In this document: in pieces, positions 30,003 through 32,472 of the stretch
How the letters are laid out: every line of letters starts with the position of its first letter
Numbering within the stretch: position 1 is the first letter of the stretch
Notes under the pieces: model-generated
Told to the model about the DNA's origin: nothing
The model's input: only the letters and a program-made list of their open reading frames with translations
Database searches by the model: none
Position numbers and translations under genes: made by a program
Origin: Deltaproteobacteria bacterium
GTDB taxonomy: Bacteria > Myxococcota_A > UBA796 > GCA-2862545
Direction of reading: 5' to 3'
Assembly: GCA_006226595.1 (NCBI GenBank)
Contig: SBGP01000111.1
Span: forward strand, 62,001-126,000
Length of the DNA: 64,000 nucleotides

Positions 30003-30882
30003 CCCCGCGAACGATGGCCCGCGCGACGATCACCGCTGCAGCGTGGCCCAGCCGGGTGAGCATGCCAGCCTCCACCGGCGTTCCCTTGCCCGTCGAGACG
30101 CAGAACACGGTGTCGCCGTCGAAGGGTGAGAACGCCGGGTAGGTCGCACGCGCGAGGCCCGCACTCGCCATCTTCGCGAGGATCTTGCACTGCGACTTGG
30201 TCATCGGCGCGTCGGTGACGACCACCACCAGGGTCGTCTGCCCCCGCGGATTGAGCGGGTTCGACGGCGCCTCTTCGGGATGGAGCAGGCCGATCGGCGG
30301 AGGGCCCGCGACGAAGGCACCCGTCTCGGGATCGCGAATGCTGCCGAGCGCGTTCACCGCGGCGCCCGCACCCAGCGTGTAGTCGTCGATCACGTAGCCC
30401 GAACAGCCAAAGCCTCCGGGTTCCGAGCCGCCTGCGAACTTGGCGACCGTAGCTCCGGCGCCAGCTCCGAGGCGCCCTTCCGCGAGGGGGCGGGACGACG
30501 CTGCCTCCGCCGCGTGTCGACCGGCTTCGGCATCGGGCCGCCACGGGCCCCGCTCGAGGTCGAACAACACCGCAGCGGGCACGATGGGCACCGCGCCGTG
30601 CGGCGTCTGAAAGCCGATGCCCTGCTCGGCGAGAACCGCCATGACGCCATCGGCCGCCGACAAGCCGAATGCCGAGCCGCCCGAGAGCGACAGACCATGG
30701 ATGTGCGGCGCAAGCTGGTCGGACTCGAGCACCGCGAGCTCGCGGCTGCCGGCGGCGCTACCGGGGGCCCACACGCCGGCCACCGCTCCCTCGGGAAACA
30801 GGAACGCGGTGCACCCGGTGGTGCCGCGCTCGTGCGTCCAGTGCCCCGCGAACACACCAGGAACGGAGGTCGGAGAAGACAT
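29986..30882 (-). CDS. P1-family (DmpA-like) N-terminal nucleophile peptidase
   Basis: This 298-residue protein matches the DmpA/BapA P1 family: GLSLSGGSAFGLSAADGVMAVL, AGAGATVAKF, GSEPGGFG, and the autocleavage-site region NPRGQTTLVVVVTDAP. In this family, self-cleavage before a Ser/Thr frees the nucleophile of an aminopeptidase. The usual N-T-T is Q-T-T here, which keeps the Thr. The ATG overlaps the upstream multihaem gene's stop by one base (TGATG), so the two are coupled. Confidence 0.88.
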   Translation of the reverse strand: MSSPTSVPGVFAGHWTHERGTTGCTAFLFPEGAVAGVWAPGSAAGSRELAVLESDQLAPHIHGLSLSGGSAFGLSAADGVMAVLAEQGIGFQTPHGAVPIVPAAVLFDLERGPWRPDAEAGRHAAEAASSRPLAEGRLGAGAGATVAKFAGGSEPGGFGCSGYVIDDYTLGAGAAVNALGSIRDPETGAFVAGPPPIGLLHPEEAPSNPLNPRGQTTLVVVVTDAPMTKSQCKILAKMASAGLARATYPAFSPFDGDTVFCVSTGKGTPVEAGMLTRLGHAAAVIVARAIVRGVTRGG

Positions 30883-32414
30883 CAGTGCTCCACACGCTTG
30901 AGGTAGCGCTCGAACTCGAAGCGCCCCATGTCACGCTCGCCATCATGGCACTCGGTGCACGTGGCTTCACTCGGAGTCTTCACCGGCTTGTGCCCAGCGG
31001 GGTCCCGCACATGCGCGCCCGCGGGTCCGTGGCAGCTCTCGCACTGGACGTCGCGGAACGGGCCGACCAGGCTGGCCTCGCTCGGGCCCCCGTCCTTGTG
31101 CGCGCCGGTGACGTGACAGCTGAAGCACTCCGGGTCCATCGCCCGCTGCGCCTTCACGAGCCCCGCATAGGCCCGCGAGTGCGGCGTGCGCGACCACTGC
31201 ATGTGCTGGTCGCTGTGACAGCCACTGCACTGGTCGGAGCCCGCCCACGGCGAGTCGCCGGGGATCAGCCTCGGCACCGCAGCCAGCGCGTCGACATCCT
31301 GTCCTCCGGTGGCCGCCGCCGTCACCGCCTCCTTGGCCGCGGTCACGCGGGCCAGGGTCTCGCCATGATCCGCGAGGTGCTCGTCGAGGGGGTCGATGCG
31401 ATTGCGGAGCAGGTTGCGCTTGGGGCCCTCGCTGTTCGCCAGCGCGTCGAGCTTCTCCCGCTCCTTGGCGAGGGTCAGCTCGTAGCGCTCGACCATGCCG
31501 CGGTACCGCGTCTGGTCCGCTTCCTTGTCCGCGGCATCGAGCCGCTTCTGGATGCGTTCGCGAAGCGCTTCCGTCTTGTCGATCTCGGCCTGGATCTCGA
31601 GCACGGGGTCGACCACCCAGCCCTGGCCTGCCTCGACCTTCACGAGCTCGGTGGTGCCGATGTACTTGGTCTGGCCGCCGGCACCGGCCTTGTAGCCGCC
31701 GCGCCAGGGTTGTAGCGCCTCGTAGCGGACCGGCTCGCCACCCGTGACCACCAGGTTCGCGCCGATCGCCTCGCCCTCTCCGAGCTTCGCGAGACGGTAC
31801 GGCAGCAGCGCGATCACGAAGTCGGCCTCGAGCGCCGCGGTCGCCTGTTGCACCGCGACGACGGGATCCGTGACCTCGCAGCCGTCGACCTCGCCAGCGG
31901 TCACGCCGACGATGCCGAAGCGCAGTCCACCGCGCTCGACCACCGTGGACCCTGGCCACGGCTGGGCTCCGTCGCAGGTGAGGTTGGCGGCGAGCACGGG
32001 AAGCCCGGCGCTGTGCTCGGTGAGCCACGCGCGACCGAGCCGCCAGTCCTCCTCGCCGAACACGAGTGCATCGACGGCGTCGGCCTTGGCTGTCTCGAGG
32101 ATCAGCGCGGCCTTGATGCGCTCGGCCTCGCCGAGATCACCGTGGTTCATGCGCGCCGAAGGCACGAGGTCGTTGCCGGCGTCGACATAGACCACCGGAG
32201 CTTCGGAACGTCGCGATGCGAGGTAGCTGCTGCGCCTGGACAGACCGCCCAGAGGATGGCGCGGTCAACCACAGGGCTCGATCTCGCCCTCTCCATGACC
32301 GGTGTACACGATGGACGCGGTGACCGAACCGCTGGATGCGGGCTCGGCGGGGATCTCCGGAGCGGGAGTCTCCGAGCCACAGCCGGCGAGGGCGACGAGA
32401 AGCAGCGTGCGCAA
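30882..32414 (-). CDS. candidate selenoprotein: metallophosphatase-like tetrahaem cytochrome c lipoprotein, in-frame UGA at codon 50
   Basis: Read through one UGA (32267-32265), the frame gives 510 residues. A TTG at 32414, 5 bases after GGAGG, begins MRTLLLVALAGC, a signal peptide with lipobox at Cys12. Then come a UshA-like N-terminal segment with EPCG followed by UGA (residue 50) and PRHPLGGLSRR, a VVYVDAG strand, a metallophosphatase-like region to about 265, a charged coiled coil (about 268-333), and four CxxCH haem motifs at Cys396, 430, 458 and 486. The UGA stands where related proteins, as I recall them, carry the second Cys of EPCGC. A hairpin with a GGUCU loop follows it. Without read-through, the ORF starts at 32195, lacks any export signal and could not receive haem. 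Alternatives are a TGC-to-TGA error or a pseudogene. The substrate is unknown. Confidence 0.7.
32233..32255 (-). promoter_or_regulatory. candidate bacterial SECIS element
   Basis: Immediately downstream of the UGA, CUGGGC pairs with GUCCAG (one G-U pair) and closes a GGUCU loop. The loop spans bases 19-23 after the UGA, the same spacing and loop bases I recall for E. coli fdhF. The stem extends weakly by U-G and C-G pairs. The GGU-CUG also encodes the conserved Gly-Leu, so part of the match could be coincidental. Confidence 0.6.
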
Positions 32415-32472
32415 ACGCACCTCCAGGCCGGGCATCCTATCGTGCGCCCGCCCCGTGCGTTAGTCCGAGCAG

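Follow-up and report, generated by a model that had tools for sequence, protein, structure and literature searches.

Gene and reading frame

On the minus strand of the window, by which we mean the whole analysed stretch of 64,000 nucleotides, a reading frame running from 32435 down to 30882 is open apart from one TGA at 32267–32265 and terminates in a second TGA at 30884–30882. Under translation table 11 the only ORF called in this frame is a 437-aa four-haem product that starts from a GTG (32195..30882, minus strand) and has no signal peptide; the standard-code gene call truncates the gene at the UGA, so that the export signal is missing. The attachment of c-type haem, however, needs export. 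A sequence-only reading of this DNA had already joined the four-haem ORF through the single TGA to an upstream segment, with EPCG placed before the codon and PLGGLSRR after it, and our reading of the frame bears this out: the TGA is flanked by EPCG on one side and PRHPLGGLSRR on the other, and both sides are conserved in the relatives.

The complete gene (30882..32435, minus strand), whose read-through frame is likewise conserved in relatives, would encode a product of 517 aa including Sec57, the last residue of a CxU motif (EPCGU; UGA at 32265..32267, minus strand). It opens with a predicted lipoprotein signal peptide (32379..32435, minus strand; TLLLVALAGC) with the lipobox LAGC and the presumably lipidated Cys19 at 32381–32379. 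Similar lipobox-like hydrophobic leaders were found by a simple pattern test in 38 of the 49 TGA-type genes described below. The lipobox proposed from the sequence alone thus stands, while the TTG start proposed with it is one of two plausible choices: TTG 32414 is preceded by a GGAGG at 32424–32420, 5 nt upstream, and ATG 32435, without a clear Shine-Dalgarno sequence, would bring the signal peptide closer to the usual length.

The Sec/Cys column in homologues

When 379 genomes of the phylum were searched in six frames, 327 gave a match, and the closest matches carry exactly one internal TGA. The TGA-type set that was read comprises 49 genes, the window gene among them. In all 49 the single TGA occupies the identical codon (the EPCG-U-P column), P-C-G directly precedes it and four CxxCH motifs are present. 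The TGA-free homologues have Cys at this column without exception (20/20; PCGC in 17 and ACGC in 3), and Trp was never seen there among the homologues read. The expectation that the UGA sits where relatives carry the second Cys of EPCGC was therefore correct.

A second collection, queried by alignment (80 named loci, in which a scan found 56 such genes), has TGA at the Sec position in 23 genes and Cys in 33; a search of the genome contigs with the window protein as the single query gave no match. Candidatus Desulfobia pelagia and Candidatus Desulfobulbus rimicarensis are among the named TGA carriers, as are uncultured members of the Acidobacteriota, Krumholzibacteriota, Eiseniibacteriota, Rokuibacteriota and Myxococcota. 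Five Sec/Cys state changes are needed on a tree of 80 rows, four of them forced by starred branches. In two uncultured bacteria a Sec-type and a Cys-type copy lie next to each other (L099, 5050–7946; L124, 4068–6882), forming natural Sec/Cys pairs within one genome each. The window's genome also has a haem-free paralogue of 288 aa (L174; G000:C76:3534–4253), in which a UshA-like domain carries GPCGC at the same place.

Selenocysteine machinery and the SECIS element

The window's genome (7.2 Mb, 117 contigs, 97% complete) possesses all four genes that the sequence-only reading had pointed to: selA (489 bits), selB (297 bits, a 624-aa ORF), selD (257 bits, within a fused ORF of 726 aa) and selC, a tRNA-Sec of 63 bits with the anticodon UCA (ARAGORN: tca). 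Across the genomes surveyed, selA was matched in 53 of the 57 with the TGA gene vs 197 of the 322 without it (Fisher p = 6e-7, with kinship ignored); the four TGA-gene genomes in which no selA match was found are all draft assemblies. The N-terminal part of the selD-containing 726-aa ORF (L018, 325–2505) resembles an NADH-dehydrogenase-type flavoprotein and is fused to the selenophosphate synthetase.

A putative SECIS apical hairpin, GGGC-GGUCU-GUCC (32238..32250, minus strand; loop 32246–32242), follows the UGA. The GGUCU loop lies 18 nt after the UGA, a spacing kept in 48 of the 49 TGA-type genes including the window gene, and GGTCT likewise lies 18 nt past the UGA in E. coli fdhF (NC_000913). 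The codons past the UGA are under strong synonymous constraint: Gly+6 is GGC in 48/48, Gly+7 is GGT in 48/49, whereas GGT accounts for 14% of the Gly codons over the TGA-type genes as a whole, and Ser+9 is TCC in 31/31, which means that the RNA sequence GGC-GGUCU is fixed. The GGT bias was not seen in the Cys homologues at the same codons. Most TGA-type genes fit one stem register, GGGC-GGUCU-G(U/C)CC. A second one, (C/U)GGC-GGUCU(C/U)-GCC, is represented by seven distinct sequences, of which six carry GGUCU and one GGACU; here two codons change at their third base in concert with the first base of the codon that follows. The minimum-energy fold of the isolated window RNA contains a different hairpin in place of this one (z = −0.6), and the SECIS assignment therefore rests on comparison and on the likeness to fdhF. 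Covariation is thin, since the apical stem has 4 bp and is mostly invariant; in shuffle tests of the stem pairs only the pair 17–31 rose above the shuffles, and for most pairs the tests are uninformative because these pairs hardly vary. Judged by sequence comparison, the loop position and the synonymous constraint agree with a SECIS element of the fdhF kind.

In TGA-type homologues of other lineages (L104, L106, L108, L116, L134, L154, L156, L157 and L162) the GGUCU loop is missing, and several distant TGA-type genes carry other sequences at its place, GGGCU for example; the SECIS loop thus seems to be lineage-dependent.

Decoding of the UGA

The in-frame UGA is almost certainly decoded as Sec by SelB and the tRNA-Sec(UCA), directed by the SECIS hairpin with GGUCU 18 nt downstream. 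The sequence-only reading of the codon as Sec in a CxU motif is thus upheld by the TGA in 49/49 genes, the Cys in 20/20 homologues, the sel genes and the SECIS constraint. A true stop, a sequencing error or a pseudogene, with the haem ORF translated separately from GTG 32195, would account for the 437-aa ORF that table 11 yields, but it would leave a haem protein without the export signal that its cofactor requires; nor would it explain an identical TGA codon in 49 genes of separate genomes, the conservation of EPCG and GGLSRR on either side, the Sec machinery in the genome or the synonymous constraint past the UGA. We regard it as extremely improbable, and plain termination with re-initiation was rejected. 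Reading of the UGA as Trp, Cys or another residue, through suppression or a reassigned code, is hardly credible either. The frame would be open whatever residue the TGA stood for, but the window gene and many of its relatives themselves terminate in TGA, so that UGA cannot be generally reassigned, a dedicated tRNA-Sec(UCA) is present together with selA, selB and selD, and the homologues read substitute Cys and never Trp; a reassigned UGA was rejected as well.

Domain architecture and the lost metal site

An AlphaFold2 model was built from 57 sequences (pLDDT 90, pTM 0.88). Past the leader, the protein has a UshA-like 5'-nucleotidase N-terminal domain (approximately 31608..32324, minus strand), delimited by sequence and structure comparison; in the model its fold resembles that of 5'-nucleotidases (Z ~29, rmsd ~2.4 over ~265 residues) and of SoxB (Z ~27). 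A predicted long helical hairpin (approximately 31437..31607, minus strand; helices 259–283 and 287–315 of the mature protein) connects it to the haem domain, in which the four sites are CSGCH (C403, 31215..31229), CFSCH (C437, 31113..31127), CESCH (C465, 31029..31043) and CTECH (C493, 30945..30959), all on the minus strand. This module matches cytochrome c554 (PF13435, E = 4e-14, 53.7 bits vs a gathering threshold of 20.8; also PDB 1bvb), which, with the four CxxCH motifs and the lipobox leader, agrees with the tetrahaem domain and lipoprotein signal proposed earlier. Unlike cytochrome c554, however, it is fused to a UshA-like Sec domain, and in contrast to E. coli UshA, other 5'-nucleotidases and SoxB the haems stand where the usual C-terminal domain would be.

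The window protein also differs from E. coli UshA in that the metal-binding and catalytic residues are missing. All eight of the UshA residues that we take to be the dimetal ligands and the catalytic dyad (D41, H43, D84, N116, H117, D120, H217 and H252) are replaced. Four of them, His43, Asn116, His117 and Asp120, have also given way to other residues in almost every Sec-type and Cys-type member. Aligned with E. coli UshA, 2 of the 49 Sec-type proteins retain His43, while Asn116, His117 and Asp120 do not figure among the residues common in this set. The CxU motif has been inserted a short way past the old D-x-H metal loop; Cys55-Gly56-Sec57 lies in the loop immediately behind the site of the first metal ligands. 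The N-terminal domain thus keeps the 5'-nucleotidase fold and is predicted to be dead as a phosphoesterase.

Relation to known selenoproteins

Residues 39–508 of the window protein align end to end with positions 23–518 of the 519 of the NCBIfam model NF041198 ('UshA_like_PCGU', UshA-like (seleno)protein), which covers the UshA-like PCGU family (E = 2.9e-69), and the PCGU motif, the Sec/Cys exchange and the UshA and haem domains are common to both. Together with the 5'-nucleotidase fold, this match supports the UshA-like assignment made from the sequence. The score of 234 bits, however, is below the curated cut-off of 275, and the protein is therefore to be considered a close full-length relative and not a certified member. 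Desulfobulbus-type members score 563–650 and others of the window's branch 243–352; the near relatives L024 and L025 reach 243 and 271 bits, and L031 (320) and L046 (352), from the same divergent branch, pass the cut-off.

The suggestion that this is a new, undescribed kind of selenoprotein does not hold. COG0737 UshA-like CxU selenoproteins were on record by 2008 at the latest (PMC2398784, 76 sequences) and appear also in PMC9312934 and PMC13188914, and NF041198 includes such forms; the family is widespread. By its sequence, the window protein is best described as a new, divergent relative of this already catalogued family. Sec in a haem-bearing protein is not new either: ExtKL of Geobacter (NF040886; PMC5877670) is a multihaem c-type cytochrome with Sec that was known before, a tetrathionate-reductase-type octahaem selenoprotein family is listed in PMC13188914, and PDB 9wt8 ('MccSep') is another multihaem selenoprotein, for which our literature search found no relevant paper. 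ExtKL shares with the window protein the Sec in a multihaem c-type cytochrome but has five haems and is encoded inside a selenite/tellurite-reduction cluster (PMC5877670); its model, NF040886, gives 18 bits against a cut-off of 250, in the haem region only. UshA-like selenoprotein family 2 (NF049981) has a UshA-like N-terminal stretch in common with the window protein but a CxxU motif in place of CxU, and scores 31.7 bits (cut-off 140), with residues 41–110 alone matching.

We found no described function for the catalogued UshA-like family, and the accessible portions of PMC2398784, PMC9312934 and PMC13188914 contain neither a mention of its haems nor a discussion of its lost metal site. What the present analysis adds is the anatomy: the lost metal site, the placement of Cys-Gly-Sec and the tetrahaem module in place of the usual C-terminal domain.

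Gene neighbourhood and proposed function

TsaD and RsmA lie downstream of the selenoprotein gene in 15 of the 17 loci compared. In 9 of 16 relatives (L180, 11996–16591, and eight others) the immediate upstream neighbours are a GldA/GldF/GldG-like ABC system and DUF4340, whereas the window locus has a divergent gene there instead. No conserved neighbour hinting at a substrate was found in the loci compared, and the neighbourhood supports orthology, not function.

Taken as a whole, the window gene very probably encodes a genuine selenoprotein: an exported UshA-like, CxU-related lipoprotein with a dead N-terminal phosphoesterase domain, a tetrahaem c554-like module and a proposed Cys/Sec-haem redox function. 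What can be read from the sequence is the conserved pair (CxU or CxC), the leader of lipoprotein type, the four haem motifs and the loss of the phosphoesterase site; beyond this we infer export, Sec insertion and a haem-coupled redox role of the Cys/Sec pair. Haem-wired selenol/thiol redox in the cell envelope appears to be the most likely function. The Cys/Sec pair may form and break a selenenylsulfide, or attack a sulfur, selenium or metal(loid) substrate, while the four haems would exchange electrons with a redox partner in the envelope; towards this coupled mechanism we lean modestly.

The clear homology of fold and sequence to 5'-nucleotidases and SoxB might instead suggest a working metallophosphoesterase (a hydrolase of the 5'-nucleotidase or SoxB kind) with Sec/Cys as a modifying or structural residue. 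This is highly unlikely, since the four UshA residues are replaced nearly throughout both types, the window protein further lacks Asp41, Asp84, His217 and His252, and the haems take the place of the substrate-binding C-terminal domain. A role of the pair as ligand for a metal or an additional cofactor, as a structural or electron-transfer site and with no thiol chemistry, is also unlikely, if less strikingly so: the CxU motif sits at the old metal site, and Cys and Sec are good metal ligands, but most other conserved ligands of the ancestral site are lost and no sign of a cofactor appeared in the present analysis.

Returning to the haem-coupled redox reading, we would extend it, with evenly balanced confidence, to the whole UshA-like CxU/CxC family, the members of which may use a phosphoesterase fold, now dead, for redox catalysis in the envelope; a Cys-Gly-Sec redox pair, connected to a tetrahaem module, would have taken over from the dimetal site, and Cys and Sec would have replaced each other on several occasions across phyla. 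With its metal site lost, a CxU motif next to that site and a haem module, a family that bears the name of a phosphatase becomes the subject of a testable redox-enzyme hypothesis.

A supporting analogy for the redox role is provided by another ORF of the window's genome (L175; G000:C36), interrupted by the contig end, in which a thioredoxin-like domain with SPTCPHC and a c554-type haem domain are joined; by analogy, this suggests that the c554-like haem module may be reused with thiol-redox domains.
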